The notes beneath the pieces are model-generated. The model saw only the letters and a program-made list of their open reading frames with translations, was not told where the DNA came from and ran no database searches. Of a DNA stretch of 64,000 nucleotides, positions 13,799-63,433 are shown piece by piece (within the stretch, counting starts at the first letter, position 1; each line of letters starts with the position of its first letter). The stretch comes from Panulirus ornatus (lineage: Eukaryota; Arthropoda; Malacostraca; Decapoda; Palinuridae), in assembly GCF_036320965.1 (NCBI RefSeq), contig NC_092240.1, positions 16,373,501-16,437,500 of the forward strand, read 5' to 3'. The translations under genes and the position numbers were made by a program.

Positions 13799-13904
13799 AA
13801 CTGAGTCAGGCCCTTATTTTCTCTGAAATTGGCTCAAGTCTTGACCCTGAGAAAGTGGATACCGTCCTTACCAATATTACAACCTTGATACCAAAAGTCC
13901 ATGG
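13799..13904 (+). CDS. IMPA1: IMPA1 exon, residues ~153-189
   Basis: Acceptor acttccag and a consensus donor gtaagc bound 106 nt. The peptide LSQALIFSEIGSS...PKVHG matches the human stretch from KSLLVTELGSS to PVHG. It starts with two bases finishing a Glu codon and ends after two bases of a Gly codon, so the next exon must supply one base; all three alternative exons downstream do. The exon starts about 60 bp after the 3' end of an RTE retrotransposon, so the normal acceptor region of this intron has been kept very short. Confidence 0.93.
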
Positions 13905-14409
13905 GTAAGCTGTCATGAAGTATTTTATGATTTGAAATTTGATTGATGTGAGACATTTCTTTATTATCAGTCCACAGGACTTGGGCTCAGCCCAGTGTCA
14001 AAACAGGATTACTGGTCGTTAATTACTGAGTCATTCACAAAGCTGGACATGGTCAAAAGAGGTAACCCAAAGCTCACTAGTCCTTTACTGACAAGATGTA
14101 CCTCTTACCTGACAAGAGATGGGGAAAAAATGTCACATTTGTCATTCACTTTACAAATCTAAGATTTCACTTAGATGATTTATATTTAGTTAACAGTATG
14201 TAACACAAGGCTATTTCAGGACAATATATTCTGTAGAATATAGTATTTAGTAAATTTATTTTACATTACTGTTTCAGATTTAGTTTATTAGTGACCATAT
14301 CAAGCTTCTTTTTACTCTGTATTTATTTATTGAAAGCCTTTACATCATATATCAAGGTAATGATATTTAAACAAGCTTAGAGAAGAGTAATGAGCTGCAT
14401 CACATGAAG

Positions 14410-14561
14410 GTGCCGCACCATGGGATGTGCAGCCTTACACATGGCTCATGTGGCTTTGGGTGCTGCTGATGCCAACTATTCCATGGGGGTTCACTGCTGG
14501 GACATTGCTGCAGGTTGTCTCTTAGTACAGGAGGCAGGAGGAGTGGTCATAGACACTGCAG
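14410..14561 (+). CDS. IMPA1: IMPA1 alternative exon 4a (pocket Ser variant)
   Basis: First of three homologous 152-nt exons. One base completes the Gly of the previous exon; 50 codons follow; one base is left over; donor gtacct. It encodes the segment equivalent to human residues 190-239, including CWD (Trp219-Asp220, metal ligand) and EAGGVVID. The counterpart of pocket residue Ala196 is Ala, but that of Glu213 is Ser (NYSMG). Acceptor is aag with an in-frame TGA at 14405 just upstream, which fixes the boundary; the usual pyrimidine tract is missing, so splicing may be weak or regulated. Protein identity by my count is 27/50 to exon 4c and 25/50 to exon 4b. Reading frame is open and conserved, which argues against a dead copy. 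Confidence 0.85.
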
Positions 14562-14989
14562 GTACCTTCATTATTAGGGGATTTTTGGAAACAATACAAG
14601 GTTTTAGGGTATTGTAGAGAGTTCCGTTGTACAGGGTATCATTAAACAGCATGTTTCAAACTTGAGTGTGGTGCTTTGTATAAAATTAAGCCTTTTTGGG
14701 TTCTTCACTGGGAAATTATTTGGGCCTTAGATCATCAGTGATATTATGGCTTATTGAAGGAGACAGGGAATGCTAACCTTTCATTTGATAGTGCTTGGGA
14801 GCTCATGTGGTCCATGCCAAAATTCATTAGGTAGGTAGTAAAGTATACACTAGCTGTAAGCATCATGCATGCATAGTAGAAGCTAACCTCCATAAAATGT
14901 AAATATGGTTAAGAATGTGCATTCCAGAAATTTTTGAGATCTACATAAAATTGTTAGAAATGTTAGGGAGCAGTCATATAGATACAAGA
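14562..14989 (+). other. IMPA1 intron after exon 4a, nothing recognised
   Basis: No repeat or coding signal recognised between the exon donor and the old RTE copy. Confidence 0.5.
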
Positions 14990-15965
14990 CAGTTCATAGA
15001 ATTTTACAGGTGTAAATGAAAATGGGTGTGTTGTGTGTAAAGAAAAACGAATGGTAATTGGGAATACATTGTTTATAAAAAGATGTATACTTAAGGTTAC
15101 AGGGATGAGAGGGGTTGGGGGTGAATGAGTGTTAATAGATTGTGTGTCAACTGACAGATGTGGAGCGAAATGGCAAGTAGAGTGTCTGATACTTTCTTGG
15201 TGGAATCAAGAATGAAGTTTTTATTAGTTTAAAGAAAATAGAAAATGACTGGCAAATATTTCAAGTGCAAGTGATGAAAGTGAGCTGGCTTGAAAAGTGG
15301 CTTGTGTGCTGAGATACCAGGTAAGACTTATTGATGAAAAGCTAAGGGTGAAAGTATATGAAACTAGGGGTAGTGAAAGTTGCTTAGGAAAGCAGTGCTT
15401 CAGTATTAGCATGTAGGTAGGATGTGGGGGAATCAGAAATATGGCAAATGATCAGATGAAGAAGTTAGATCATAAGTGAAATTGAAAAGGAAAGCTGTAT
15501 GGTTGATATCTCTATGGAGGAAAAGTGTGTTAGTGATCGGGGAGAGTACAAGAGATGAGAGAAGAAGGGAAAGGTTCGTTAACTGATAGAGAGAGCAAAT
15601 GAGAAATGGGTAGAGAAAGCAGCAGTGTAATTTAGAGAAAGAAAATTATTTGGAAGAATGCAAATAGTGTTAAAAGAACAACATGATAAATGAAGATGAC
15701 GGTAAGGAGAGTGGGTATAGAAGTGGTAATGGAGAGATTTTAACTGGAAATGGAGTATTTTAAAAGACTGCTGAATGTATTAGGTGGTAAGGAGGCAAAT
15801 GTGCTGTCTTTGGGACAAGCTGGGATGCAGATAGAGAGATACATAGCAAATGGGGTGATGAAGCTGAAGTAAACCCATCCTTAAAATGAAAAGTTTTAGA
15901 GCATTAGGACTGGATGAAATTGCAGCATATTTTCACAAGGAGGTGGGTTACATTGTTTTTAATAG
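14990..15965 (+). mobile_element. Old RTE copy, 5' part (split by hAT)
   Basis: Heavily decayed match to the endonuclease end and the middle domain: VIGNT-like and LIDCVS-like traces near 15050-15150, FWKKVNSVRK-like sequence near 15640-15680 and the segment AAYFHKEVGYIVFN at 15920-15964. The copy stops exactly where the hAT element begins. The continuation of its reading frame is found at 30278, so the two pieces appear to be one insertion cut in two. Confidence 0.65.
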
Positions 15966-16110
15966 CAAAGTTGGGCACTGAAGTGATAATCTGATGACAG
16001 ATGATTATCTAAGTTGATATTGATCAGAAGTTAACTTCCATAATCATTATCAAACCAGTTAACTTCTGATACTTGACTTTTTAGTCCGATAATGTCCATT
16101 AATTTTGTTC
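15966..16110 (+). repeat. hAT left terminal inverted repeat region
   Basis: After the GTTGGGCACTGA terminus come two internal copies of an AGTTAACTTC motif and AATCATTATC, mirrored in the right end. Mismatches are frequent, in keeping with an old element. Confidence 0.6.
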
Positions 16111-16204
16111 AATAAGATTTTTATTGTTTTAGTTTTCTTTATAGGTTTTTCAGTATCATTGTTATTCTTTCTTGTTAATTCTATTTCTTGTAATAGGAAA
16201 GTTT

Positions 16205-18335
16205 GCTGTGGTTTCGGGGCATTATTACATAACAGCTAGAGACTGAGTGTGAACGAATGTGACCTTTGTTGTCTTTTCCTAGTGCTACCTCACGCACATT
16301 CCGGGGGAAGGGGGTTTTATTTCATGTGTGGCGGGGTGGCAATGGGAATGAATAAAGGCAGACAGTATGAATAAAGGCAGACAGTATGGTACAGTATGAA
16401 TAAAGGCAGACAGTATGGTAAATTATATGGGAGGGTATTGATTGAGAGGGTGAAGGCATGTACAGAGCATCAGATTGGGGAAGAGCAGTGTGGTTTCAGA
16501 AGTGGTAGAGGATGTGTGGCTCAGGTGTTTGCTTTGAAGAATGTATGTGAGAAATACTTAGAAAAGCAAATGGATTTGTATGTAGCATTTATGGATCAGG
16601 AGAAGGCATATGACAGAGTTGATAGAGATGCTCTGTGGAAGGTATTAAGAATATATGGTGTGGGAGGCAAGTTGTTAGAAGTAGTGAAAAGTTTTTATCG
16701 AGGATGTAAGGCATGTATACGTGTAGGAAGAGAGGAAAGTGATTGGTTCTCAGTGAATGTAGGTTTGCGGCAGGGGTGTGTGATGTCTCCATGGTTGTTT
16801 AATTTGTTTATGGATGGGGTTGTTAGGGAGGTGAATGCAAGAGTTTTGGAAAGAGGGGCAAGTATGAAGTCTGTTGTGGATGAGAGAGCTTGGGAAGTGA
16901 GTCAGTTGTTGTTCGCTGATGATACAGCGCTGGTGGCTGATTCATGTGAGAAACTGCAGAAGCTGGTGACTGAGTTTGGTAAAGTGTGTGAAAGAAGAAA
17001 GTTAAGAGTAAATGTGAATAAGAGCAAAGTTATTAGGTACAGTAGGGTTGAGGGTCAAGTCAATTGGGAGGTAAGTTTGAATGGAGAAAATCTGGAGGAA
17101 GTAAAGTGTTTTAGATATCTGGGAGTGGATCTGGCAGCGGATGGAACCATGGAAGTGGAAGTGAATCATAGGGTGGGGGAGGGGCGAAAATCCTGGGAGC
17201 GTTGAAGAATGTGTGGAAGTCGAGAACATTATCTCGGAAAGCAAAAATGGGTATGTTTGAAGGAATAGTGGTTCCAACAATGTTGTATGGTTGCGAGGCG
17301 TGGGCTATGGATAGAGTTGTGCGCAGGAGAGTGGATGTGCTGGAAATGAGATGTTTGAGGACAATGTGTGGTGTGAGGTGGTTTGATCGAGTAAGTAACG
17401 TAAGGGTAAGAGAGATGTGTGGAAATAAAAAGAGCGTGGTTGAGAGAGCAGAAGAGGGTGTTTTGAAATGGTTTGGGCACATGGAGAGAATGAGTGAGGA
17501 AAGATTGACCAAGAGGATATATGTGTCGGAGGTGGAGGGAACGAGGAGAAGTGGGAGACCAAATTGGAGGTGGAAAGATGGAGTGAAAAAGATTTTGTGT
17601 GATCGGGGCCTGAACATGCAGGAGGGTGAAAGGAGGGCAAGGAATAGAGTGAATTGGATCGATGTGGTATACTGGGGTTGACGTGCTGTCAGTGGATTGA
17701 ATCAGGGCATGTGAAGCGTCTGGGGTAAACCATGGAAAGTTGTGTGGGGCCTGGATGTGGAAAGGGAGCTGTGTTTTCGGGCATTATTGCATGACAGCTA
17801 GAGACTGAGTGTGAACGAATGGGGCCTTTGTTGTCTTTTCCTAGTGCTACCTCGCACACATAAGGGGGGAGGGGGATGGTATTCCATGTATGGCGAGGTG
17901 GCGATGGGAATGAATAAAGGCAGACAGTGTGAATTGTGTGCATGGGTATATATGTATGTGTCTGTGTGTGTATATATGTGTGTACATTGAGATGTATAGG
18001 TGTGTATAGTTGTGTGTGTGGACGTATATGTGTATACATTGTGTATGGGGGTGGGTTGGGCCATTTCTTTCGTCTATTTCCTTGCGCTACCTCGCAAACG
18101 CGGGAGACAGCGACAAAGCAAAATAAATAAATAATAAATAATAGTATGAATTATGTACATGTGTATATATGTATATGTCTGTGTGTGTATATATATGTAT
18201 ACATCGAGATGTATAGGTATATATATGTGCATGTGTGGACGTGTATGTATATACATGTGTACCTGGGTGGGTTGGGTCATTCTTTCGTCTGTTTCCTTGT
18301 GCTACCTCGCTAATGCAGGAGACAGCAACAAAGCA
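16205..18335 (+). mobile_element. Chimeric RTE insertion (UTR-RT-UTR-UTR)
   Basis: A 13-bp direct repeat, aataggaaagttt, at 16192-16204 and 18336-18348 shows that the whole stretch entered as one unit. Order inside: a piece of 3' UTR (16205-16358); three copies of AATAAAGGCAGACAGTATG (to ~16414); RT from GKLYGRVLIERV through FADDTALVADS to the ORF end (~17681), with a 1-nt deletion near 17188; a full long 3' UTR with tail to ~18135; then a second 3' UTR end (18148-18335). This looks like reverse transcription of a read-through or template-switched RNA rather than a single element. Confidence 0.8.
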
Positions 18336-18548
18336 AATAGGAAAGTTTAAACTATAATTGATTATATGATTTATCATTTACGTTGTCATTTATGTGTATA
18401 TATGATGATATGTCACGTGTTATATAAATGAAATATATTTCTCAGATATACTGTTTATTTGTTTCATTTGTCCAACATAATCATGCAATGATCAGTTTTT
18501 GATATTTCTGTATAGTGATGAAAATTATATGGTTTGTAGAATAATACA

Positions 18549-20856
18549 GGGAAGTAATGCAAATGACTGGGAGATGTATAAAAGAAAGAGGCAGGAGGTC
18601 AAGAGAAAGGTGCAAGAGGTGAAAAAGAGGGCAAATGAGAGTTTGGGTGAGAGAGTATCATTAAATTTCAGGGAGAATAAAAAGATGTTTTGGAAGGAGG
18701 TAAATAAAGTGCGTAAGACAAGGGAACAAATGGAAACTTCAGTGAAGGGGGCTAATGGGGAGGTGATAACAAGTAGTGGTGATGTGAGAAGGAGATGGAG
18801 TGAGTATTTTGAAGGTTTGTTGAATGTGTTTGATGATAGAGTGGCAGATATAGGGTGTTTTGGTTGAGATGGTGTGCAAAGTGAGAGGGTTAAGGAGAAT
18901 GATTTGTTAAACAGAGAAGAGGTAGTAAAAGCTTTGTGGAAGATGAAAGCTGGCAAGGCAGTGGGTTTGGATGGTATTGCAGTGGAATTTATTAAAAAGG
19001 GGGGTGACTGTTTTGTTGACTGGTTGGTAAGGTTATTTAATGTATGCATGACTCATGGTGAGGTGCCTGAGGATTGGCGGAATGCTTGCATAGTGCCATT
19101 GTACAAAGGCTAAGGGGATAAAAGTGAGTGCTCAAATTACAGAGGTATAAGTTTGTTGAGTATTCCTGATAAATGATATGGGAGGGTATTGATTGAGAGG
19201 GTGAAGGCATGTACAAAGCATCAGATTGGGGAAGAGCAGTTTGGTTTCAGAAGTGGCAGAGGATGTGTGGATCAGGTGTTTGCTTTGAAGAATGTATGTG
19301 AGAAATACTTAGAAAAGCAAATGTATTTGTATGTAGCACTTATGGATCTGGAGAAGGCATATGATAGAGTTGATAGAGATGCTTTGTGGAAGGTATTAAG
19401 AATATATGGTGTGGGAGGCAAGTTGTTAGAAGCAGTGAAAAGTTTTTATCGAGGATATAAGGCATGTGTACATGTAGGAAGAGAGGAAAGTGATTGGTTC
19501 TTGGTGTATGTTGGTTTGCAGCAGGGGTGTGTGATGTCTCCATGGTTGTTTTATTTGTTTATGGATGAGGTTGTTAGGGAAGTGAATGCAAGAGTTTTGG
19601 AAAGAGGGGCAAGTATGCAGTCTGTTGTGGATGAGAGAGCTTGGGAAGTGAGTCAGTTGTTGTTCGCTGATGATACAGCGCTGGTGGCTGATTCATGTGA
19701 GAAACTGCAGAAGCTGGTGACTGAGTTTGGTAAAGTGTGTGAAAGAAGAAAGCTGAGAGTAAATGTGAATAAGAGCAAGGTTATTATGTACAATAGGATT
19801 GAGGGACAAATCAATTGGAAGGTAAGTCTGAATGGAGGAAGTGAAGTGTTTCAGATATCTGGGAGTGGATTTGGCAGTGAATGGAACCATGGAAGCAGAA
19901 GTAAGTCATAGGGTGGGGGAGGGGGCGAAAGTTCTGGGAGCGTTGAAGAATGTGTGGAAATTGAGAACATTATCTCGGAAAGCAAAAATGGGTATGTTTG
20001 AAGGAATAGTGGTTCCAACAATGTTATATGGTTGCAAGGCGTGGGCTATAGATAGAGTTGTGCAGAGGAGGGTGGATGTGCTGGAAATGAGATGTTTGAG
20101 GACAATATGTGGTGTGAGGTGGTTTGATTGAGTAAGTAATAATAGGTTAAGAGAGGTATGTGGTAATAAAGAGTGTGGTTGAGAGAGCAGAAGAGGGTGT
20201 TTTGAAATGGTTTGGTCACATGGAGAGAATGAGTGAGGAAAGATTGACTAAGAGGATATATGTGTCGGAGGTGGAGGGAACGAGGAGAAGTGGGAGACCA
20301 AATTGGAAGTGGAAAGATGGAGTGATAAAGATTTTGAGTGATCGGGTCCTGAACATGCAGGAGGGTGAAAGGTGTGCAAGGAATAGAGTGGATTGGAACG
20401 ATGTGGTATACTGGGGCCGACGTGCTGTCAGTGGATTGAACCAGGGCATGTGAAGCATCTGGTACAAACCATGGAAAGTTTTGTGGGGCCTGGATGTGGA
20501 AAGGGAGCTGTGGTTTCAGTGCATTATTACATGACAGCTAGAGACTGAGTGTGAACGAATGTGGCCTTTGTTGTCTTTTCCTAGCATTACCTCGCACACA
20601 TGCAGGGGAAGGGGGTTGTTATTTCATGTGTGGCGGGGTGGTGATGGGAATGAATAAAGGCAGATAGTATGAATTATGTACATTTGTATATATGTATTTG
20701 TCTGTGTGTATATATATGTATACGTTGAGATGTATGTGGACATGTATGTATATACATGTGTATGTGGGTGGGTTGGGCCATTCGTTCGTCTGTTTCCTTG
20801 CGTTACCTCGCTAACGCGGGAGACACCGACAAAGTAAAATAATAGATTATAATAAG
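18549..20856 (+). mobile_element. RTE-like copy with 8-bp target duplication
   Basis: Flanked by ataataca at 18541-18548 and 20857-20864. Starts in the middle domain (EMYKRKRQEVKRK), continues through all RT motifs and ends in a long 3' UTR. Disabling changes: CGA to TGA at ~18866, stop at ~19111 (YKG-stop), stop at ~19173, an 8-nt deletion near 19834 in the LNGEKLEE region, and a stop near 20129. Lacks the endonuclease. Confidence 0.87.
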
Positions 20857-20864
20857 ATAATACA

Positions 20865-21429
20865 AACAGATATTAAAAACATTAATCGTCGCCTTACATT
20901 TTATGATAGTAATAGCTGAGCCATCAAACACACCATTACTGACTCCCTCCCAGACTCTGATTGTAACTCCCAGTTCCACCTCCCTTCCCTCCCCTATACT
21001 GTTTCCATACCAAACAGGTACAGTGTAAGGTTACAAGCGGAAGCGGACGTGTCCATGATGGATCTTGTTGGTTGACAGTTGCCAATTATGTGGGAGGGAA
21101 AGAATTTCATTAAGATTTGTGAACTTTGTTATTATTATGTATAAAGCTAAATAAAATGCTTTAGAAAGGACAAATATAGGTTTTTCTTTTTTCTCAAAAT
21201 AAATAGGACAACCAGATCCAAAAAAAGACAGATTTTCCATAAAAGGACAGACCTAGCAACCCTGTTGACACACTGAGGATTTGGCCGTATCGGCTGTATA
21301 AGCCAGCAACGATGTTCATTATCATTGTCAACTTGACAGCGTTCAGTTCTCTAACTTCATTCTTACAGTCTGGTCTCTACAAGTTAATTTACAACGGTAA
21401 AGACTACAACAGACCATTGTCCATGGAAC
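20865..21429 (+). other. hAT 5' non-coding region
   Basis: Between the RTE insertion and the transposase coding part. The stretch 21195-21264 ends in GGACAGACCTAGCAACCCTG and would read as a terminal repeat on the minus strand (CAGGGTTGCTAGG...); no partner end was found, so I leave it unassigned. A possible acceptor, attcttacag, lies at ~21360-21369. Confidence 0.4.
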
Positions 21430-22091
21430 ACCAAGCGGAAGTTCTCTACATTTAAATTGCCTGTCTCAGGCACTTCTGTAGCGGAGATTTATCAGCCATC
21501 TGAGAGCCATGTTGCTGCCAGCCAGGACCAGGAGCCTTTCCAAAACCCCTGGCCCCACCTGGAGTGCTGCTTCGAGTTCAGTTGTCAGGACAAGGACAAC
21601 AGGTACTATTTTGAATGCCAAAAATGTCACCCTACCAAGAAAATTGTTAGAGGCCATGTCACCCATCCAGTTTGAGGAGGAGATCAAGGCTGGCTCTGGC
21701 CATGGCAAGCACTGCCACCACTCCTCTGGCAGCAGCATCATGCACAGCTGTGGCGACAACACCCTCAAGCTGCCCGCCAGTGAGGTCTGGAAGTCCACCA
21801 TCAGCAAGGCCCTGGGCTTAGCCAGCATTGGCAGTGCCATTCACCAGTCCACTCTCGACAAAAAGATGGTCCATCTTTTTGTCAACAACATACTTCTGCT
21901 CCACGTGGTTGAGTCCAGGGAGTTGGTTGACCTGATCAGGACCCTCGGCTCAACAAAGGTCAGCATGTTCAACCTCACCCTGGCAGGCGCATTGATGACA
22001 AACAAGAGGCAGTCGAGGAGACTCTCATCAATCTTTTTGATGGGCTGATGTACTTGGCGACCACTACCGACTGTTGGACTGCTCACAAAAG
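21430..22091 (+). pseudogene. hAT transposase, N-terminal part
   Basis: No ATG start is evident. The first frame (about 21457-21672) carries a BED-type zinc finger candidate: PWPHLECCFEF followed by FECQKC and a downstream His pair. A frameshift near 21660 moves to SPIQFEEEIK... and another near 21970 is needed to reach DGLMYLATTTDCWTAHKR at 22035-22090, where TTDCW holds the first catalytic Asp of hAT transposases (D-x-W). A donor-like gtaatt follows at 22092, and the frame resumes after a cag acceptor at 26660, so the RTE copies lie in a transposase intron. Not functional as it stands. Confidence 0.7.
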
Positions 22092-22305
22092 GTAATTATC
22101 ATTATTTATTTATGAATATTGTACTAACTCGTACATATAATGTAGTTAGTAGAATGAATTATTATGCATATACAGTGAGTATTACCATTTTGTTATATAA
22201 AAATTGGCATGAATTGAAATTCAGTTTAATTTCAAGTGTTTGAAATAAGAGCAGATAATCACTGAACCATTAATCAGTACTAGTCACAATTACGTAATCT
22301 TTCTT

Positions 22306-22540
22306 TCTTTCATACTATTCACCATTTCCCGCATTAGCGAGGTAGTGTTAAGAACAGAGGACTGGGCCTTTGAGGGAATATCCTCACCTGGCCCCCTTTC
22401 TGTTCCTTCTTTTGGAAAATAATAAAAAAAAAACGAGAGGGGAGGATTTCCAGCCCCCTGCTCCCTCCCCTTTTAGTCGCCTTCTACGACATGTTGGGAA
22501 TATGTGGAAAGTATTCTTTCTCCCCTATCCCCAGGGATAA
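22306..22540 (-). repeat. Element B (RTE-derived non-autonomous), copy
   Basis: On the minus strand it begins with TATCCCTGGGGATAGGGGAG, the same start as the RTE 5' UTR at 46831, and ends with GCTACCTCGCTAATGCGGGA, like the RTE 3' end. In between are a C/G-rich block and an A-run. No ORF, and no clear Pol III box was seen. Confidence 0.8.
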
Positions 22541-22656
22541 TAATGTAGTACATTAATGTTTCTTTTTATCATAATTTGCATAAATTTAACATAACTCATT
22601 TTAGAATGTTTGGAATTAAACTTAATCATCAGTATATTATTCAGTATATTATTCAG

Positions 22657-25424
22657 AGGACAAGAGCAAGGGAAGGAGTAGCAATACTCCTGAAACAGGA
22701 GTTGTGGGAGTATGTGATAGAGTGTAAGAAAGTAAATTCTCGATTAATATGGGTAAAACTGAAAGTTGATGGAGAGAGGTGGGTGATTATTGGTGCTTAT
22801 GCACCTGGGCATGAGAAGAAAGATCAAGAGAGGCAAGTGTTTTGGGAGCAGCTGAATGAGTATGTTAGTGGTTTTGATGCACGAGACCGGGTTATAGTGA
22901 TGGGTGATTTGAATGCAAAGGTGAGTAATGTGGCAGTTGAGGGAATAATTGGTATACATGGGGTGTTCAGTGTTGTAAATGGAAATGGTGAAGAGCTTGT
23001 AGATTTATGTGCTGAAAAAGGACTGATGATTGGGAATACCTGGTTTAAAAAGCGAGATATACATAAGTATACTTATGTAAGTAGGAGAGATGGCCAGAGA
23101 GCGTTATTGGATTACGTGTTAATTGACAGGCGTGCGAAAGAGAGACTTTTGGATGTTAATGTGCTGAGAGGTGCAACTGGAGGGATCTGATCATTATCTT
23201 GTGGAGGCTAAGGTGAAGATTTGTATGGGTTTTCAGATAAGAAGAGTGAATGTTGGGGTGAAGAGGGTGGTGAGAGTAAGTGAGCTTGAGAAGGAGATCT
23301 GTGTGAGGAAGTACCAGGAGAGACTGAGTACAGAATGGAAAAAGGTGAGAACAATGGAAGTAAGGGGAGTGGGGGAGGAATGGGATGTATTTAGGGAATC
23401 AGTGATGGATTGCGCAAAAGATGCTTGTGGCATGAGAAGAGTGGGAGGTGGGTTGATTAGAAAGGGTAGTGAGTGGTGGGATGAAGAAGTAAGAGTATTA
23501 GTGAAAGAGAAGAGAGAGGCATTTGGACGATTTTTGCAGGGAAAAAATGCAATTGAGTGGGAGATGTATAAAAGAAAGAGACAGGAGGTCAAGAGAAAGG
23601 TGCAAGAGGTGAAAAAAAGGGCAAATGAGAGTTGGGGTGAGAGAGTATCATTAAATTTTAGGGAGAATAAAAAGATGTTCTGGAAGGAGGTAAATAAAGT
23701 GCGTAAGACAAGGGAGCAAATGGGAACTTCAGTGAAGGGCGCAAATGGGGAGGTGATAACAAGTAGTGGTGATGTGAGAAGGAGATGGAGTGAGTATTTC
23801 GAAGGTTTGTTGAATGTGTTTGATGATAGAGTGGCAGATATAGGGTGTTTTGGTCGAGGTGGTGTGCAAAGTGAGAGGGTTAGGGAAAATGATTTGGTAA
23901 ACAGAGAAGAGGTAGTGAAAGCTTTGCAGAAGATGAAAGCCGGCAAGGCACCAGGTTTGGATGGTATTGCAGTGGAATTTATTAAAAAAGGGGGTGACTG
24001 TATTGTTGACTGGTTGGTAAGGTTATTTAATGTATGTATGACTCATGGTGAGGTGCCTGAGGATTGGCGGAATGCGTGCATAGTGCCATTGTACAAAGGC
24101 AAAGGGGATAAGAGTGAGTGCTCAAATTACAGAGGTATAAGTTTGTTGAGTATTCCTGGTAAATTATATGGGAGGGTACTGATTGAGAGGGTGAAGGCAT
24201 GTACAGAGCATCAGATTGGGGAAGAGCAGTGTGGTTTCAGAAGTGGTAGAGGATGTGTGGATCAGGTGTTTGCTTTGAAGAATGTATGTGAGAAATACTT
24301 AGAAAAGCAAATGGATTTGTATGTAGCACTTATGGATCTGGAGAAGGCATATGATAGAGTTGATAGAGATGCTCTGTGGAAGGTATTAAGAATATATGGT
24401 GTGGGAGGAAAGTTGTTAGAAGCAATGAAAAGTTTTTATCGAGGATGTAAGGCATGTGTACGTGTAGGAAGAGAAAAAGTGATTGGTTCTCAGTGAATGT
24501 AGGTTTGCGGCAGGGGTGTGTGATGTCTCCATGGTTGTTTAATTTGTTTATGGATGGGGTTGTTAGGGAGGTAAATGCAAGAGTTTTGGAAAGAGGGGCA
24601 AGTATGAAGTCTGTTGGGGATGAGAGAGCTTGGGAAGTGAGTCAGTTGTTGTTCGCTGATGACACAGCGCTGGTGGCTGATTCATGTGTGAAACTGCAGA
24701 AGCTGGTGACTGAGTTTGGTAAAGTGTGTGGAAGAAGAAAGTTAAGAGTAAATGTGAATAAGAGCAAGGTTATTAGGTACAGTAGGGTTGAGGGTCAAGT
24801 CAATTGGGAGGTGAGTTTGAATGGAGAAAAACTGGAGGAAGTGAAGTGTTTTAGATATCTGGGAGTGGATCTGGCAGCGGATGGAACCATGGAAGCGGAA
24901 GTGGATCATAGGGTGGGGGAGGGGGCGAAAATTCTGGGAGCCTTGAAGAATGTGTGGAAGTCGAGAACATTATCTCGGAAAGCAAAAATGGGTATGTTTG
25001 AAGGAATAGTGGTTCCAACAATGTTGTATGGTTGCGAGGCGTGGGCTATGGATAGAGTTGTGCGCAGGAGGATGGATGTGCTGGAAATGAGATGTTTGAG
25101 GACAATGTGTGGTGTGAGGTGGTTTGATCAAGTGAGTAACGTAAGGGTAAGAGAGATGTGTGGAAATAAAAAGAGCGTGGTTGAGAGAGCAGAAGAGGGT
25201 GTTTTGAAGTGGTTTGGGCACATGGAGAGGATGAGTGAGGAAAGATTGACCAAGAGGATATATGTGTCGGAGGTGGAGGGAACGAGGAGAAGAGGGAGAC
25301 CAAATTGGAGGTGGAAAGATGGAGTGAAAAAGATTTTGTGTGATCGGGGCCTGAACATGCAGGAGGGTGAAAGGAGGGCAAGGAACAGAGTGAATTGGAG
25401 CGATGTGGTATACCGGGGCTGACG
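22657..25424 (+). pseudogene. RTE endonuclease-reverse transcriptase ORF, two frameshifts
   Basis: APE-type endonuclease: LKVDGERWVIIGAYAPGH, the VIVMGDLNAKV catalytic strand, YTYVSRRDGQRALLDYVLID, then SDHYLVE (the SDH motif) at ~23188. Next a charged middle domain (KRKRQEVKRKVQEVKKRANE), the RT fingers (LDGIAVEFIKKGGD, YKGKGDKSECSNYRGISLLS), FRSGRGCVDQVF, palm motif MDLEKAYDRVDRDALW, LRQGCVMSPWLFN, catalytic FADDTALVADS, thumb NKSKVIRY, YLGVDLA, and a C-terminal block WFGHMERMSEERLTKR...GRPNWRWKDGV. Breaks: a 2-nt deletion at ~23187 in GGM-SDH and a 1-nt deletion at ~24472 in REESDW. Copies of target DNA by nicking and reverse transcription of its own RNA are the known activity of the family; this copy cannot make the full protein. 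Confidence 0.88.
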
Positions 25425-25627: not shown

Positions 25628-25674
25628 TATTCAGTAATCACTTAATCAGTATTACACAGTGTATCAATCAATAC

Positions 25675-26634: not shown

Positions 26635-26660
26635 CAATCAATACTCAATCTTTGTTTCAG

Positions 26661-28868: not shown

Positions 28869-28878
28869 ATCTAATTTA

Positions 28879-46830: not shown

Positions 46831-46833
<3 letters not shown>

Positions 46834-50376: not shown

Positions 50377-50380
<4 letters not shown>

Positions 50381-50600: not shown

Positions 50601-50630
50601 AAAAAAAATATATATATATATATTTTTTTT

Positions 50631-53092: not shown

Positions 53093-54066
53093 GAGTCAGT
53101 TGTTGTTCGCTGATGATACAGCGCTGGTGGCTGATTCATGTGAGAAACTGCAGAAGCTGGTGACTGAGTTTGGAAAAGTGTGTGGAAGAAGGAAGTTAAG
53201 AGTAAATGTGAATAAGAGCAAGGTTATTAGGTACAGTAGGGTTGAGGGTCAAGTCAATTGGGAGGTGAGTTTGAATGGAGAAAAACTGGAGGAAGTGAAG
53301 TGTTTTAGATATCTGGGAGTGGATCTGGCAGTGGATGGAACCATGGAAGCGGAAGTGGATCATAGGGTGGGGGAGGGGGCGAAAATCCTGGGGGCCTTGA
53401 AGAATGTGTGGAAGTCGAGAACATTATCTCGGAAAGCAAAAATGGGTATGTTTGAAGGAATAGTGGTTCCAACAATGTTGTATGGTTGCGAGGCGTGGGC
53501 TATGGATAGAGTTGTGCGCAGGAGGATGGATGTGCTGGAAATGAGATGTTTGAGGACAATGTGTGGTGTGAGGTGGTTTGATCGAGTGAGTGTACGTAAG
53601 GGTAAGAGAGATGTGTGGAAATAAAAAGAGCGTGGTTGAGAGAGCAGAAGAGGGTGTTTTGAAGTGGTTTGGGCACATGGAGAGGATGAGTGAGGAAAGA
53701 TTGACCAAGAGGATATATGTGTCGGAGGTGGAGGGAACAAGGAGAAGAGGGAGACCAAATTGTAGGTGGAAAGATGGAGTGAAAAAGATTTTGTGTGATC
53801 GGGGCCTGAACATGCAGGAGGGTGAAAGGAGGGCAAGGAATAGAGTGAATTGGAGCGATGTGGTATACCGGGGTTGACGTGCTGTCAGTGGATTGAATCA
53901 AGGCATGTGAAGCGTCTGGGGTAAATCATGGAAAGCTGTGTAGGTATGTATATTTGCGTGTGTGGACGTATGTATATACATGTGTATGGGGGGGGGTTGG
54001 GCCATTTCTTTCGTCTGTTTCCTTGCGCTACCTCGCAAACGCGGGAGACAGCGACAAAGTATAATA

Positions 54067-54068
<2 letters not shown>
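53093..54068 (+). mobile_element. RTE-like copy, short 3' UTR (unit 2)
   Basis: Counterpart of 45801-46782 with the same 1-nt insertion (near 53590) and the same short UTR; one Ala codon is changed (LAVDGT instead of LAADGT) and the following (TA)n is shorter (54075-54109). Confidence 0.88.
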
Positions 54069-54109
<41 letters not shown>

Positions 54110-54112
<3 letters not shown>

Positions 54113-57100
54113 TTGGGGATAGGGGAGAAAGAATACTTCCCACGCATTCTCCGCGTGTCGTAGAAGGCGACTATAGGGGATGGGAGAGGAGTTGCTAGAA
54201 ACCCTCCACTCCTTGTGTTGTAACTTTCTAAAAGAGGAAGCAGAAGGAGTCACGCAGGGAGTGCTCATCCTCCTCGAAGGCTCAGATTTGGGTGTCTATG
54301 TGTGTGGATGTAACCGAGATGAGAAAAAAAGGAGAGACAGGTAGTATTTTTGTGGAAAGGAACCTGGATGTTTTGGCTCTGAGTGAAACAAAACTCAAGG
54401 GTAAAGGGGAAGAGTGGCTTGAGAATGTTTTAGGAGTAAAGTCAGGGGTTGGTGAGAGGACAAGAGCAAAGGAAGGAGTAGCATTATTCCTAAAACACGA
54501 GTTGTGGGAGTATGTGATAGAGTTTAAGAAAGTAAACTGATATGGGTAAACTGAAAGTGGATGGAGAGAGATGGGTGATTATTGGTGCATATGCACCTGG
54601 GCATGAGAAGAAAGATCATGAGAGGCAAGTGTTTTGGGAGCAGCTGAGTGAGTGTGTTAACAGCTTTGATGCACAAGACCAGGTTATAGTGATGGGTGGT
54701 TTGAATGCAAAGGTGAGTAATGTGGCTGTTAAGGGAATAATTGGTGTACATGGGGTGTTCAGTGTTGTAAATGGAAATGGTGAAGAGCTTGTAAATTTGT
54801 GTGCTGAAAAAGGACTGGTGATTGGGAATACCTGGTTTAAAAAGAGAGATAAACATAAGTATACATATGTAAGTAAGAGAGATGGCCAGAGAGCGTTATT
54901 GGATTACATGTTAATTGATAGGTGTGTGAAAGAGAGACTTTTGGATGTTAATGTGCTGAGAGATGCACCTGCAGGGATGTCTCATGATTATCTTGTGGAG
55001 GCGAAGGTGAAGATTTGAAGAGGTTTTCAGAAAAGAAGAGTGGGTGTTGGGTTGAAGAGAGTGGTGACAGTAAGTGTGCTTGGGAAAGAGAATTGTGTGA
55101 GGAAGTACCAGGAGAGACTGAGTGCAGAATGGAAAAAGGTGAGAGCAAAGGACATAAAGAGAGTGGGGTAGGAATGGGATATATTTAGGGAAGCAGTGAT
55201 GGCTTGCGAAGAAGATGCTTGTGGCATGAGAAGCGTGGGAGGTGGGTAGATTTGAAAGGGTAGTGAGTGGTGGGATGAAGAAGTAAGATTATTAGTGAAA
55301 GAGAAGAGAGAGGCATTTGGATGATTTTTGCAGGGAAACAGTGCAAATGAGTGGGAGATGTATAAAAGAATGAGGCAAGAGGTCAAGAGAAAGGTGCAAG
55401 AGGTGAAAAAGAGGGTAAATGAGAGTTGGGGTGAGAGAGTATCATTGAATTTTAGGGAGAATAAAAAGATGTTTTGGAAGGAGGTAGATAAAGTGCGTAA
55501 GACAAGAGAATAATGGTAACATCGGTGAAGGGGGCTAATGGAGAGGTAATAACAAGTAGTGGTGATGTGAGAAGGAGATGGTGTTAGTATTTTGAAGGTT
55601 TGTTGAATGTGTTAGATGATAGAGTGGCAGATATAGGGTGTTTTGTTCGAGGTGGTGTACGAAGTGAGAGGGTCAGGGAGAACGGTTTGTTAAACTGAGA
55701 AGAGGTAGTGAAAGCTTATGGAAGATGAAAGCCGGCAAAACGGCGGGTTTGGATGGTATTGCAGTGGAATTCATAAAAAAAGGGGGTAACTGTGTTGTTG
55801 ACTAGTTGGTGAGGATATTCAATGTATGTATGGCTCATGGTGAAGTGCCTGAGGATTGGCGGAATACATGCATAGTGCCATTGTACAAAGGCAAAGAGGA
55901 TAAAGGTGAGTGTTCACATTACAGAGTTATAAATTTGTTGAGTATTCTTGGAAAATTATATGGGAGGGTATTGATTGTGAGGGTGAAGGCATGCACAGAG
56001 CATCAGACTGGAGAAGAGAAGTGTGGTTTTGGAAGTGGTAGAGGATGTGGGATCAGGTGTTTGCTTTGAAGAATGTATGTGAGAAATACATAGAAAAACA
56101 AATGGATTTGTATGTAGCATTTATGGATATGGAGAAGACATATGATAAGAGTTGATAAGAGATGCTCTGTGGAAGGTATTAAGAGTATATGGTGTGGGAG
56201 GCAAATTGCTAGAAGCGGTGAAAAGTTTTTATAGGATGTAAGGCATGTGTACGAGTAGGAAGAGAGGAAAATGACTGATTCTCAGTGAATGTCGGTTTGC
56301 GGCAGGGGTGCGTGAAGTCTCCATGGTTGTTTAATTTGTTTATGCGTGGGGTGGTTAGGGAGGTGAATGCAAGAGTTTTGGAGAGAGGGGCAAGTATGCA
56401 ATCTGTTGTGGATGAAAGGGCTAGGGAAGTGTCAGTTGTTGTTCGCTGATGATACAGTGCTGGTGGCTGATTTGGGGTGAGAAACTGCTGAAGTTGGTGA
56501 CTGAGTTTGGTAAAATGTGTGAAAGAAGAAAGCTGAGAGTAAATGTGAATAAGAGCAAAGTTATTAGGTACAGTAGGGTTGAGGGACAAGTCAGTTGGGA
56601 GGTAAGTTTGAATGGAGAAAAACTGGAGGAAGTGAAGTGTTTTAGATATCTGGAAGTAGATTTGGCAGCGGATGGAACCATGGAAGCGGAAGTGAGTCAC
56701 AGGGTGAGGGAGGGGGTGAAGATTCTAGAAGTGTTAAAGAATGTGTGGAAGGCTAGGACATTATCTCTGAAAGCAAAAATGGATATGTTTGAAGGAATAG
56801 TGGTTCCAACAATGTTACATGGTTCCGAGGCATGGGCTATAGATTGGGTTGTGTGGAGGAGGGTGGATGTGTTGGAAATGAGATGTTTAAGGACAATATT
56901 TTATGTAGGGTGGTTTGATCGAGTAAGTAATGAAAGGGTAAGAGAGATGTGTGGTATTGAAAAGAGTGTGGTTGAGAGAGCAAAAGAGGGTGTATTGAAA
57001 TGGTTTGGTCATGTGGAGAGAATGAGTGAGGAAAGATTGACAAAGAGGATATATGTGTCATAGGTGGAGGGAACGAGGGGAAGTGGGAAACCAAATTGGA

Positions 57101-57601
57101 GGTGGAAAGATGGAGTGAAAAAGATTTTAAGTGATCGGGGCCTGAACATGCAGGAGGGTGAAAGGCTTGCAAGGAATAGAGTGAATTGGAATGATGTGGT
57201 ATACCAGGGTTGACATGCTGTTAGTGGATTGAACCAGGGCATGTGAAGTGACTGGGGTAAACTATGGAAAGTTTTGTGGGGGCCTGGATATGGAAAGGGA
57301 GCTATGGTTTCAGTGCATTATACATGACAGCTAGAGAGTGAGTGTGAACGAATGCGGCCTTTGTTGTTTTTTCCTAGCACTACCTCGCAGGCGTGCGGGG
57401 AGAGGGGGATGTCATTTCATGTGTGGCAGGCTGGCTACGGGAATGAATGAAGGCAGCAAGTATGAATTATGTACATGTGTATATACGAATATGTCTGTGT
57501 ATGTATATATACGTATACGTTGAAATGTATAGGTATGTATATGTGCGTGTGTGGACATGCATGTATATACGTGTGTATGTGGGTGGGTTGGGCCATTCTT
57601 T

Positions 57602-57605
<4 letters not shown>
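54110..57605 (+). mobile_element. Near-full-length older RTE copy (unit 2)
   Basis: Counterpart of 46831-50327 with the same stops and deletions. Differences noted include one fewer A near 54330, SHD instead of PHD at ~54980 and TTTGC instead of TTAGC at 56061. Followed by (TA)n to 57654. Confidence 0.88.
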
Positions 57606-57654
<49 letters not shown>

Positions 57655-57658
<4 letters not shown>

Positions 57659-57877
57659 CCTGGGGATAGGGGAGAAAGAATACTTCCCACATATTCCCTG
57701 CATGTCGTAGAAGGCGACTAAAAGAGAAGGGAGCGGGGGGCTAGAAATCCTCCCCTCTTTTTTTTTTTATTTTCCAAAAGAAGGAACAGAGAAGGGGGCC
57801 AGGTTAGGATATTCCCTCAGAGGCCCAGTCCTCTGTTCTTAACGCTACCTCGCTATGGCGGGAAATGGCGAATATTA

Positions 57878-57878
<1 letters not shown>
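57655..57878 (+). repeat. Element B copy (unit 2)
   Basis: Counterpart of 50377-50600, followed by A-run, (TA)n and T-run to 57919. Confidence 0.87.
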
Positions 57879-57918
<40 letters not shown>

Positions 57919-57919
57919 T

Positions 57920-60205
57920 GCTTTGTCGCTGTCTCCCGCGTTTGCGAGGTAGCGCAAGGAAACAGACGAAAGAAATGGCCCAACCCACCCCCATACACAT
58001 GTATATACATACACGTCCACACACGCAAATATACATACCTACACAGCTTTCCATGGCTTACCCCAGACGCTTCACATGCCCTGATTCAATCCACTGACAG
58101 CACATCAACCCCGGTATACCACATTGATCCAATTCACTCTATTCCTTGCCCTCCTTTCACCCTCCTGCATGTTCAGGCCCCGATCACACAAAATCTTTTT
58201 CACTCCATCTTTCCACCTCCAATTTGGTCTCCCTCTTCTCCTCGTTCCCTCCACCTCCGACAAATATATCCTCTTGGTCAATCTTTCCTCACTCATTCTC
58301 TCCATGTGCCCAAACCATTTCAAAACACCCTCTTCTGCTCTCTGAACCACGCTCGTTTTATTTCCACACATCTCTCTTACCCTTATGTTACTTACGCGAT
58401 CAAACCACCTCACACCACACATTGTCCTCAAACATCTCATTTCCAGCACATCCATCCTCCTGCGCACAACTCTATCCATAGCTCACGCCTCGCAACCATA
58501 CAACATTGTTGGAACCACTATTCCTTCAGACATACCCATTTTTGCTTTCCGAGATAATGTTCTCGACTTCCACACATTCTTCAAGGCTCCTAGGATTTTC
58601 GCCCCCTCCCCCACCCTATGATCCACTTCCGCTTCCATGGTTCCATCCGCTGCCAGATCCACTCCCAGATATCTAAAACACTTTACTTCCTCCAGTTTTT
58701 CTCTATTCAAACTTACCTCTCAATTGACTTGACCCTCAACCCTACTGTACCTAATAACCTTGCTCTTATTCACATTTACTCTTAACTTTCTTCTTTCACA
58801 CACTTTACCAAACTCAGTCACCAGCTTCTGCAGTTTCTCACATGAATCAGCCACCAGCGCTGTATCATCAGCGAACAACAACTGACTCACTTCCCAAGCT
58901 CTCTCATCCCCAACAGACTTCATACTTGCCCCTCTTTCCAAAACTCTTGCATTCACCTCCCTAACAACCCCATCCATAAACAAATTAAACAACCATGGAG
59001 ACATCACACACCCCTGCCGCAAACCTACATTCACTGAGAACCAATCACTTTCCACTCTTCCTACACGTACACATGCCTTACATCCTCGATAAAAACTTTT
59101 CACTGCTTCTAGCAACTTGCCTCCCACACCATATATTCTTAATACCTTTCACAGAGCATCTCTATCAACTCTATCATATGCCTTCTCCAGATCCATAAAT
59201 GCTACATACAAATCCATTTGCTTTTCTAAGTATTTCTCACATACATTCTTCAAAGCAAACACCTGATCCACACATCCTCTACCACTTCTGAAACCACACT
59301 GCTCTTCCCCAATCTGATGCTCTGTACATGCCTTCACCCTCTCAATCAATACCCTCCCATATAATTTACCAGGAATACTCAACAAACTTATACCTCTGTA
59401 ATTTGAGCACTCACTCTTATCCCCTTTGCCTTTGTACAATGGCACTATGCATGCATTCTGCCAATCCTCAGGCACCTCACCATGAGTCATACATACATTA
59501 AATAACCTTACCTACCAGTCAATAATACAGTCACCCCCTTTTTTAATAAATTCCACTGCAATACCATCCAAACCTGCTGCCATGCCGGCTTTCATCTTCC
59601 GCAAAGCTTTTACTACCTCTTCTCTGTTTACCAAATCATTTTCCCTAACCCTCTCACTTTGCACACCACCTCGACCAAAACACCCTATATCTGCCACTCT
59701 ATCATCAAACACATTCAACAAACCTTCAAAATACTCACTCCATCTCCTTCTCACATCACCACTACTTGTTATCACCTCCCCATTTGCGCCCTTCACTGAA
59801 GTTCCCATTTGCTCCCTTGTCTTACGCACTTTATTTACCTCCTTCCAGAACATCTTTTTATTCTCCCTAAAATTTAATGGTACTCTCTCACCCCAACTCT
59901 CATTTGCCCTCTTTTTCACCTCTTGCACCTTTCTCTTGACCTCCTGTCTCTTTCTTTTATACATCTCCCACTCAATTGCATATTTTCCCTGGAAAAATCG
60001 TCCAAATGCCTCTCTCTTCTCTTTCACTAATAATCTTACTTCTTCATCCCACCACTCACTACCCTTTCTAATCAACCCACCTCCCACTCTTCTCATGCCA
60101 CAAGCATCTTTTGTGCAATCCATCACTGATTCCCTAAATACATCCCATTCCTCCCCCACTCCCCTTACTTCCATTGTTCTCACCTTTTTCCATTCTGTAC
60201 TCAGT
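57920..60205 (-). mobile_element. Long RTE-like copy, inverted (unit 2)
   Basis: Counterpart of 50631-52916 with the same three nonsense changes. Extra differences: TTTCACAG instead of TTCCACAG near 59149, which makes a further stop (DAL-stop on the minus strand), and one more C in a C-run near 60157, which restores the frame GVGEEWDVF that is shifted in unit 1. Confidence 0.88.
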
Positions 60206-62044
60206 ATATGTATGTAAGTAGGAGAGATGGCCAGAGAGCGTTATTGGATTACGTGTTAATTGACAGGCGCGTGAAAGAGAGACTTTTGGATGTTAATGTG
60301 CTGAGAGGTGCAACTGGAGGGATGTCTGATCATTATCTTGTGGAGGCTAAGGTGAAGATTTGTATGGGTTTTCAGAAAAGAAGAGTGAATGTTGGGGTGA
60401 AGAGGGTGGTGAGAGTAAGTGAGCTTGGGAATGAGACTTGTGTAAGGAAGTACCAGGAGAGACTGAGTACAGAATGGAAAAAGGTGATATATATACAGTC
60501 ACATATATATACATGTATATATATATACATCAGACTGTATATATATACAGTCTGATGCTCTGTACTTGCCTTCACCCTCTCAATCAATACCCTCCCATAT
60601 AATTTACCAGGAATACTCAACAAACTTATACCTATATATATATATATATATATAGTGGGGAAGAGCAGTGTGGTTTCAGAAGTGGTAGAGGATGTGTGGA
60701 TCAGGTGTTTGCTTTGAAGAATGTATGTGAGAAATACTTAGAAAAGCAAATGGATTTGTATGTAGCATTTATGGATCTGGAGAAGGCATATGATAGAGTT
60801 GATAGAGATGCTCTGTGGAAGGTATTAAGAATATATGGTGTGGGAGGCAAGTTGTTAGAAGCAGTGAAAAGTTTTTATCGAGGATGTATGGCATGTGTAT
60901 GTGTAGGAAGAGAGGAAAGTGATTGGATCTCAGTGAAAATATGTTTGCGGCAGGGGTGTGTGATGTCTCCATGGTTGTTTAATTTGTTTATGGATGGGGT
61001 TGTTAGGGAGGTAAATGCAAGAGTTTTGGAAAGAGGGGCAAGTATGAAGTCTGTTGGGGATGAGAGAGCTTGGGAAGTGAGTCAGTTGTTGTTCGCTGAT
61101 GATACAGCACTGGTGGCTGATTCATGTGAGAAACTGCAGAAGCTGGTGACTGAGTTTGGTAAAGTGTGTGAAAGAAGAAAGTTAAGAGTAAATGTGAATA
61201 AGAGCAAGGTTATTAGGTACAGTAGGGTTGAGGGTCAAGTCAATTGGGAGGTAAGTTTGAATGGAGAAAAACTGGAGGAAGTAAAGTGTTTTAGATATCT
61301 GGGAGTGGATCTGGCAGCAGATGGAACCATGGAAGCGGAAGTAGATCATAGGGTGGGGGAGGGGGTGAAAATCCTGGGAGCCTTGAAGAATGTGTGGAAG
61401 TCGAGAACATTATCTCGGAAAGCAAAAATGGGTATGTTTGAAGGAATAGTGGTTCCAACAATGTTGTATGGTTGCGAGGCGTGGGCTATGGATAGAGTTG
61501 TGCGCAGGAGGATGGATGTGCTGGAAATGAGATGTTTGAGGACAATGTGTGGTGTGAGGTGGTTTGATCGAGTAAGTAACGTAAGGGTAAGAGAGATGTG
61601 TGGAAATAAAAAGAGCGTGGTTGAGAGAGCAGAAGAGGGTGTTTTGAAATGGTTTGGGCATATGGAGAGAATGAGTGAGGAAAGATTGACCAAGAGGATA
61701 TATGTGTCAGAGGTGGAGGGAACAAGGAGAAGTGGGAGACCAAATTGGAGGTGGAAAGATGGAGTGAAAAAGATTTTGTGTGATCGGGGCCTGAACATGC
61801 AGGAGGGTGAAAGAAGGGCAAGGAATTGAGTGAATTGGATCGATGTGGTATACCGGGGTTGACATGCTGTCAGTGGATTGAATCAGGGCATGTGAAGCGT
61901 CTGGGGTAAACCATGGAAAGATGTATAGGTATGTATATTTGCGTGTGTGGACGTATGTATATACATGTGTATGGGGGTGGGTTGGGCCATTTCTTTCGTC
62001 TGTTTCCTTGCGCTACCTCGCAAACGCGGGAGACAGCGGCAAAA

Positions 62045-62048
<4 letters not shown>
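60206..62048 (+). mobile_element. RTE-like copy with internal inversion
   Basis: Plus-strand endonuclease end (60206-60485, through SDHYLVE to ERLSTEWKKV), then a TA-rich palindrome, then an inverted ~85-bp piece (60548-60632, minus strand YRGISLLSIPGKLYGRVLIERVKA), a (TA)n at 60632-60654, and then plus-strand RT from GEEQCGFRSGRGCVDQVF. The RT frame 60696-61829 (377 residues) is the longest unbroken RT in the window, with MDLEKAYDRVDR, LRQGCVMSPW and FADDTALVADS; a TGA at 61827 ends it about ten codons early. Short 3' UTR. The middle domain is missing. Confidence 0.85.
60527..60556. repeat. Perfect 30-bp palindrome
   Basis: 15-bp arms (CATCAGACTGTATAT and its complement) without spacer, located exactly at the plus/minus switch inside the RTE copy. 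The arms derive from the GAGCATCAGATTGG region of RT. Confidence 0.9.

Positions 62049-62108
<60 letters not shown>
62049..62108. repeat. (TA)n microsatellite
   Basis: About 30 units between two RTE copies in the same orientation. Confidence 0.97.
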
Positions 62109-62111
<3 letters not shown>

Positions 62112-62970
62112 GGTACATTAGGTTATTAGGTACAGTAGGGTTGAGGGTCAAGTCAATTGGGAGGTAAGTTTGATTGGAGAAAAACTGGAGGAAGTAAAGT
62201 GTTTTAGATATCTGGGAGTGGATCTGGCAGCGGATGGAACCATGGAAGCGGAAGTGGATCATAGGGTGGGGGAGGGGGCGAAAATCCTGGGAACCTTGAA
62301 GAATGTGTGGAAGTCGAGAACATTATCTCGGAAAGCAAAAATGGGTATGTTTGAAGGAATAGTGGTTCCAACAATGTTGTATTGTTGCGAGGCGTGGGCT
62401 ATGGATAGAGTTGTGCGCAGGAGGATGGATGTGCTGGAAATGAGATGTTTGAGGACAATGTGTGGTGTGAGGAGGTTTGATCGAGTAAGTAACGTAAGGG
62501 TAAGAGAGATGTGTGGAAATAAAATGAGCGTGGTTCAGAGAGCAGAAGAGGGTGTTTTGAAATGGTTTGGGCACATGGAGAGAATGAGTGAGGAAAGATT
62601 GACCAAGAGGATATATGTGTCGGAGGTGGAGGGAACGAGGAGAAGTGGGAGACCAAATTGGAGGTGGAAAGATGGAGTGAAAAAGATTTTGTGTGATCGG
62701 GGCCTGAACATGCAGGAGGGTGAAAGGAGGGCAAGGAATAGAGTGAATTGGATCGATGTGGTATACCGGGGTTGACGTGCTGTCAGTGGATTGAATCAGG
62801 GCATGTGAAGCGTCTGGGGTAAACCATGGAAAGCTGTGTAGGTATGTATATTTGCGTGTGTGGACGTATGTATATACATGTGTATGGGGGTGGGTTGGGC
62901 CATTTTCTTTCATCTGTTTCCTTGCGGTACCTCGCAAATGCGGGAGACAGCGACAAAGCAAAAGAAAAAT
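62109..62970 (+). mobile_element. RTE-like copy, short 3' UTR
   Basis: Starts at VIRYSRVEGQVNWEV. The ORF is open from 62170 to 62775 with the normal end. Point changes: MLYCCEAW (Gly to Cys), VRRFDRV (Trp to Arg) and NKMSVVQRA. Short 3' UTR and tail GACAAAGCAAAAG. Last transposon before IMPA1 exon 4c, ~310 bp upstream of it. Confidence 0.88.
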
Positions 62971-63281
62971 ATATATTATATATATATTCCCTGCCAAATA
63001 CATACCAGGTTTAAAATATGGTGTCCTAAGCACTAAGGTTTAAAAAATGGCAGATGTACTAGATTTAGATGTGTGTGGCTAGTTAAATGGCTTATGAGAC
63101 TTATTATGCATATGAGTTTTTGCTGATTTTGCCCATCTTGGGGAGACACCTTATTTTATTACCATGGTTGGCACTTGAAGAGATAATGGTTACAAATGTT
63201 AGCAGTTATCTTATTTTGAAGAGAACCTTTATGGCTGTTATTGTATTAAAAACACCACATTCTTGTTTCTTCTCTCCTTAG

Positions 63282-63433
63282 AATCCGTGCCATGGGCTCA
63301 TGCACCTTGAATATGTGTTATGTAGCAATGGGTGGCGTTGATGTTTGCTTTGAGTTTGGAATTCATGCATGGGACATGGCAGCTGGTTACCTGGTTGTAA
63401 CAGAGGCAGGGGGAGTGGTCATTGATACTGAGG
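63282..63433 (+). CDS. IMPA1: IMPA1 alternative exon 4c (canonical Glu variant)
   Basis: Third version, 152 nt, strong acceptor (pyrimidine-rich run ending ctccttag) and donor gtaggt, same phases. Encodes IRAMGSCTLNM, FEFGIHAWDMAAG and TEAGGVVID. It keeps the Glu equivalent to human Glu213 and the Trp-Asp motif, but has Cys at the Ala196 position. With the best splice site and the ancestral Glu it may be the default form; this is inference. The next exon (GPFD...) is not seen in the remaining 570 bp. Confidence 0.88.

Follow-up and report, generated by a model that had tools for sequence, protein, structure and literature searches.

Three alternative versions of one exon in a lobster IMPA1-type gene, and a probable splicing switch in substrate choice

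The 64-kb stretch of DNA analyzed here (the window) comes from the lobster Panulirus ornatus and carries on its plus strand an IMPA1-type gene, encoding an inositol monophosphatase (IMPase). Three constitutive exons of this gene are followed by three versions of the next exon, here termed a, b and c, which encode alternative forms of residues 190-239 and are spread over 49 kb (Table 1). Since the versions differ at the residue that grips inositol, splicing probably makes three enzymes with different substrates. The exons were located by tblastn with a human IMPA1 probe, and the joined exons with version c gave a 100% match to the deposited Panulirus ornatus protein P0001. Exon 8598-8857 carries the equivalents of the human metal-site residues E70, D90, I92 and D93. 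Each constitutive exon was found once in the window, which agrees, for the window, with the first-pass annotation of this DNA, where no other IMPA1 exon was found duplicated; beyond the six IMPA1 exons the next tblastn match (E = 0.8) falls inside a reverse-transcriptase open reading frame (ORF). For the GPFD terminal exon, no acceptor-anchored plus-strand match of at least 7/21 to the human terminal motif was detected in the window, and a six-frame scan of the window with the lobster first- and terminal-exon peptides returned best matches of only 10/38 and 7/22. Both of these exons, the first coding one and the terminal one, probably lie outside the window.

All three alternative exons are preceded by AG, followed by GT, share one phase and are open in frame, each spanning from the third base of the Gly189 codon to the first base of the Gly240 codon. 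The first-pass annotation had placed three exons of 152 nucleotides (nt) and common phase at positions 14410, 32138 and 63282, which the coordinates, borders and frame bear out, and had equated them with residues 190-239 of human IMPA1, which tblastn confirmed for all three. Its estimate of about 50-54% identity between the encoded segments is close to the 51-55% counted here (26/51 for a-b, 28/51 for a-c and 27/51 for b-c). Third codon positions are the most diverged among the copies, with 19 to 24/51 identical as against 30 to 37/51 at the first two positions, which is the pattern expected under selection on the protein. A six-frame ungapped scan of the whole window recovered no fourth copy with at least 15/51 identities. 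Exon a encodes Ala196, Ser213 and Asp220, exon b Ala196, His213, Cys217 and Asp220, and exon c Cys196, Glu213 and Asp220; c belongs to the class nearest to the single exon of insects.

Table 1. Exons of the IMPA1-type gene in the window and the stretches between them
Feature	Coordinates	Strand	Evidence and remarks
Constitutive coding exon LVRDAIKK...FPDHK	5929..6062	+	tblastn; match to P0001; AG/GT borders
Constitutive coding exon FIGEESVAAG...VSGET	8598..8857	+	tblastn E 5e-31; AG/GT borders
Constitutive coding exon ELSQALIFSEIGSS...PKVHG	13799..13904	+	tblastn; last common exon before the choice
Intron before exon a, 505 nt	13905..14409	+	
Alternative exon a, 152 nt	14410..14561	+	tblastn E = 8e-13; in isoform X3 (P0006)
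Stretch between a and b, 17,576 nt	14562..32137	+	56% repeated within the window; reverse-transcriptase ORFs
Alternative exon b, 152 nt	32138..32289	+	tblastn E = 2e-11; in isoform X2 (P0007)
Stretch between b and c, 30,992 nt	32290..63281	+	78% repeated within the window; reverse-transcriptase ORFs
Alternative exon c, 152 nt	63282..63433	+	tblastn E = 2e-13; in isoform X1 (P0001)

The deposited Panulirus ornatus isoforms X1, X2 and X3 correspond to exons c, b and a, respectively, set between identical flanks. Each has 278 residues, and the differences among them are confined to positions 190-239. P0001 is titled 'inositol monophosphatase 1 isoform X1', and P0006 and P0007 are both titled 'inositol monophosphatase 2'. 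A reading with one gene and three exons is therefore already implicit in the public annotation, and the identical flanks support the view of the first-pass annotation that one gene chooses one of three exons. Full paralogous genes around b and c, which it had named as an observation that would contradict this view, were not found in the window by tblastn. Against the Pfam profile PF00459 the three isoforms score 276.5 to 281.1 bits (cut-off 27) over residues 6-269 of 278, and the metal-binding residues E71, D91, D94 and D220 are present in all of them. The support for splicing consists of deposited models together with transcript-sized contigs.

The arrangement of the exons bears on how they could be combined. 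In the window sequence, joining a to b, a to c, b to c or all three gives a frame-shifted message with stops, and skipping all three leaves a frame other than that of single inclusion. The acceptor of exon a has pyrimidines at 9/20 positions, that of b at 12/20 and that of c at 18/20, with 14/20 at each of the three constitutive exons. Steric crowding of splice sites is unlikely, because 17,576 and 30,992 nt separate the alternatives. When the region after position 13904 was compared with the 500-nt flanks of the exons in this one species, no excess of 10-mer complementarity over shuffles, of the kind expected of docking and selector elements, was detected; the upstream and downstream flanks of b, and likewise those of c, showed a slight excess that was reached by 9/200 and 20/200 shuffles, respectively.

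For comparison with other organisms, the best 120 of 3,562 protein matches were combined with two from region-restricted searches with exon a (6 proteins) and exon b (4 proteins), giving a set of 122 proteins in which some rows are alternative models of one gene. Decapods account for 44 of these, as judged by name or, for four 'lgn' proteins, by our own assignment. A search of other arthropod IMPA1 genes for the same exons had been proposed in the first-pass annotation, and the classes do recur in other decapods. No difference outside residues 188-242 was seen in 11 of 14 isoform pairs, three of them from the lobster itself, drawn from 8 species (Panulirus, Homarus, Eriocheir, Penaeus japonicus, Macrobrachium rosenbergii, Procambarus, Portunus and Scylla); of the remaining three pairs, the first has a single difference beyond this range, the second has two and the third has a shifted tail. 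Between Panulirus and Homarus 43/52 residues are kept in exon a and 41/52 in exon b. One c and one b protein from the source 'lgn', each of 279 residues, differ by one residue outside the exon and look like products of one gene; they are encoded on contigs of 979 and 929 bases, which leave no space for introns, and we infer that their source is assembled reads.

In a tree of the exon segment (48 rows picked by us from the 122 proteins; 52 columns), class a formed one branch with support 100/99 (6 rows, from Penaeus, crayfish and lobsters) and class b another with support 98/79 (15 rows), and class c did not stand apart from the single exons of insects and others. When one more springtail row was added in a second tree, the 15 c rows, krill among them, came together in one branch (95/90). 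Finer branches mean little, because there are only fifty-two columns. Thus, a and b each group across species, but not every class was seen in every group: among the matches listed, which are no test of absence, class a was unseen in crabs, carid prawns and porcelain crabs, and class c in Procambarus. Three crab genera and Procambarus each have two b-like versions. A divergent b version with the motif LGPWDMAAG is found in crabs and a porcelain crab (P0037, P0038, P0041, P0046 and P0005); Asp220 is retained in it, but Gly replaces His217 and Asp237 is missing.

In our alignment, lobster position 213 corresponds to Glu213 of bovine IMPase and lobster position 220 to Asp220. The passages of PMC2080633 that treat this site state that Glu213 of human IMPase bonds the C3 and C4 hydroxyls of inositol, that enzymes specific for inositol-1-phosphate have Glu or Gln at 213, and that those also or only taking fructose-1,6-bisphosphate have Asp, His, Ser or Thr. 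The inositol-bonding residues given in the corresponding section of PMC12324327 are D93, G94, T95, A196, E213 and D220, and 196, 213 and 220 fall within the swapped exon. Among the decapod segments in the 122 proteins, position 213 is Glu in 17/17 of class c, Thr in 7/8 and Ser in 1/8 of class a, and His in 16/18 of class b, with one Gln and one Thr; in other organisms it is Glu in 77 of 79 segments, Gln in one and His in one. These segments were located by the motif WD-x-A-[AG], so that Asp220 is present there by construction. The decapod proteins P0042 and P0049 lack the motif and their segment is unreadable, and in Eriocheir X1 the motif offset reads Thr owing to an insert, with a His two residues upstream of that Thr.

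A comparison of columns over 6 a, 14 b and 14 c rows, leaving out Eriocheir X1 (on account of its insert), krill and the isopod, revealed only 3/52 columns that reach at least 80% fixation within each class and yet are unlike between classes, namely 196 (Ala in a, Ala in b, Cys in c), 213 (Thr, His, Glu) and 216 (Val, Leu, Ile). These class-fixed columns are new here and go beyond the public annotation. As 196 and 213 are among the listed inositol-bonding positions, the class-marking columns fall on the substrate site in two cases out of three, an overlap that was noticed after the fact and among related rows. Position 196 may act via its backbone. Furthermore, Asp220 and the other metal-site residues are constant in 53/53 aligned proteins, among them members of all three classes; the rows of this alignment were picked by us, and it was made without the motif and so serves as the check on Asp220.

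We consider it likely that one lobster IMPA1-type gene uses its three exons singly, with c giving the ordinary enzyme and a and b giving enzymes of weakened inositol selectivity. Exons a, b and c, in that order, would be used one at a time between common flanking exons, yielding three full-length enzymes of the inositol-monophosphatase fold. The reading frame would help to enforce exclusivity, in that, with 152-nt exons, skipping all or joining two changes the reading frame, and a message with joined exons runs into a stop. The choice itself may rest on splice-site strength, with poor proximal acceptors at a and b and a strong distal one at c, such that c would be chosen by default and inclusion of a or b would require activation. 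Each product would combine a constant Asp220 with class-specific residues at 196 and 213, mostly Cys/Glu in c, Ala/Thr or Ser in a and Ala/His in b. On this basis c would make the ordinary inositol-1-phosphate enzyme, and the a and b enzymes, their inositol selectivity weakened, may act on other small sugar or alcohol phosphates. The three-way splicing switch is probably one of substrate choice. A bolder form of the proposal, in which c works on inositol monophosphates, a and b have moved outright to other small phosphates, and the switch predates decapods, going back perhaps to the crustacean-springtail ancestor, is one that we advance tentatively and with rather more doubt than belief.

Several observations weigh against single use of the exons and against a simple reading of position 213. 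The NCBI X-models of the lobster isoforms are predictions. Each of these lobster models holds one exon, as the first-pass annotation anticipated, whereas models joining the exons, which it would have counted as contradicting exclusive use, do occur in other decapods. Three deposited models fit double inclusion over the whole length of the tail and its stop: in Homarus P0121 a is spliced to b (5 codons, against a maximum of 4 with shuffled exons), in Cherax P0024 a to c (10 codons, against 5) and in Procambarus P0033 one b version to another (12 codons, against 5), with 500 shuffled-exon trials in each case. Owing to the shortness of the tail, the fit in Homarus is the weakest of the three. In the Homarus and Cherax models a precedes b or c, matching the order in the lobster. 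Four more odd tails include one at chance level (P0014) and three without a fit (P0010, P0019 and P0026). Petrolisthes P0005 joins b-type and c segments in frame via 12 extra residues, and of two Procambarus proteins P0042 holds part of a b exon and P0049 none. Such models imply that either exclusivity leaks or the annotation errs. With respect to substrate, dual IMPase/fructose-1,6-bisphosphatases (FBPases) such as TM1415 and CysQ, as described in the relevant part of PMC2080633, have Asp, His, Ser or Thr at 213, which resembles Ser in lobster a and His in b, unlike the Glu213 of isoform c. However, the same part of that paper gives these enzymes a shortened beta9-alpha6 loop, and the lobster isoforms have no such shortening, isoform b aligning with bovine IMPase except for one gap of a single residue, which sits a few residues upstream of VHG (187-189). 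Residue 213 alone, in the absence of the short FBPase-type loop, thus does not predict the substrate. In addition, a computation on a Dictyostelium enzyme, in the section of PMC12324327 concerned, attributes selectivity to many subtle contacts and not to one or two.

Among other explanations, the exclusive exons could be real while a and b encode catalytically poor or regulatory subunits, for example in mixed dimers, so that splicing tunes the amount of active IMPase. We regard this as rather unlikely, although some observations favour it: class b has Cys or Gly instead of His217 in 12/14 rows, four rows of the LGPWD type also lack Asp237, and b rows are longer-branched than c rows in the tree. 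Constancy of the metal-site residues, Asp220 included, in every class argues against it, as do the non-random residues at 213 (mostly Thr/Ser in a and His in b) and the prediction that isoform b folds as an IMPase, with a predicted local distance difference test score (pLDDT) of 93. It is improbable that c is the only working exon, with a and b being old duplicates spliced by noise and the deposited isoforms reflecting rare reads. The weak acceptor of exon a and the double-inclusion-type models in Homarus, Cherax and Procambarus would suit such noise, but a and b are in phase and class-specific across shrimps and lobsters or crayfish, and decayed exons would not keep as many residues as a and b do between Panulirus and Homarus.

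Tandem IMPA genes occur in insects, and b and c could in principle belong to separate full-length genes whose other exons were lost through assembly error or lie elsewhere. The long repeat-filled gaps, along with a 7.3-kb tandem block of 99.5% identity that could be mis-assembled, leave some room for this, but no second copy of the other IMPA1 exons turned up in 64 kb, in 8 species isoforms agree everywhere except in residues 188-242, and the lobster proteins carry the database labels isoform X1, X2 and X3, which makes separate genes highly improbable.

Some sequences beyond the decapods bear on the age of the array. In the springtail Allacma fusca one model (P0034) contains two copies of the segment, with His213 and then Glu213, and 13 residues between them, hinting at an alternative exon outside crustaceans; its His213 copy is placed among the b rows (93/82), where its branch is very long. 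In the isopod Armadillidium vulgare, P0071 has Gln213 and adjoins decapod class b (87/91), a placement that may point to a b lineage predating the decapods. The array either arose before decapods did, or copies of this kind have more than one origin.

Human IMPA1 and IMPA2 share the fold and the segment, with Gln in IMPA2 aligned to Glu in IMPA1 at 213, and are two separate genes, unlike the one spliced gene considered here. No report of an IMPA1 exon array was found in the open-access literature searched. Two candidate reports were set aside: in the parts that bear on the enzyme, a firefly genome paper names it only as a neighbouring gene and a lung-cancer review has it only within an abbreviation. 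A close precedent is coq-2 of helminths, which, in the sections of PMC7434440 describing it, has two 134-nt mutually exclusive exons, 6a and 6e. As here, these are internal exons of an enzyme gene, equal in length and not a multiple of three (134 as against 152 nt), and they swap the core of the enzyme near the substrate. That gene differs in having two exons and not three, in the enzyme and lineage concerned, and in that the need for the e form in rhodoquinone synthesis was demonstrated, whereas for IMPA1 we infer the change of substrate. Dscam and muscle myosin heavy chain, to judge from the portions of PMC3912159 and PMC3364881 on their exons, are likewise arthropod arrays of homologous exons used singly; IMPA1 differs in being a small metabolic enzyme with three exons over 49 kb, and in the lack of detectable docking or selector pairing in the limited test reported above. 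Human ACSL6 isoforms, as outlined in the part of PMC1543647 on the fatty-acid gate, similarly exchange a substrate-gate segment, in another enzyme and fold.

Titles of solved structures name IMPase as the putative target for lithium therapy; it also catalyses a step in the recycling of inositol, and it is usually regarded as a single enzyme with a single pocket. Here, an inositol-reading residue of that pocket lies on a swappable exon and is fixed per version across decapods, and the catalytic aspartate is untouched. The gene may thus offer, in a protein that is otherwise unchanged, a natural experiment with three variants on the determinants of substrate preference in this fold, and leads to the prediction that shrimps, crabs and lobsters have enzymes whose use depends on tissue or state.

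The stretch between b and c contains a 7.3-kb head-to-tail duplication (45801-53096 and 53093-60386), which either arose very recently by tandem duplication or reflects an error of assembly; no IMPA1 exon was found in the block. ORFs matching RVT_1 lie at 1293-2396, 16375-17202, 19177-19908, 23168-25419, 51435-52223 and 60603-61826, as several copies in both orientations within or near the long introns.

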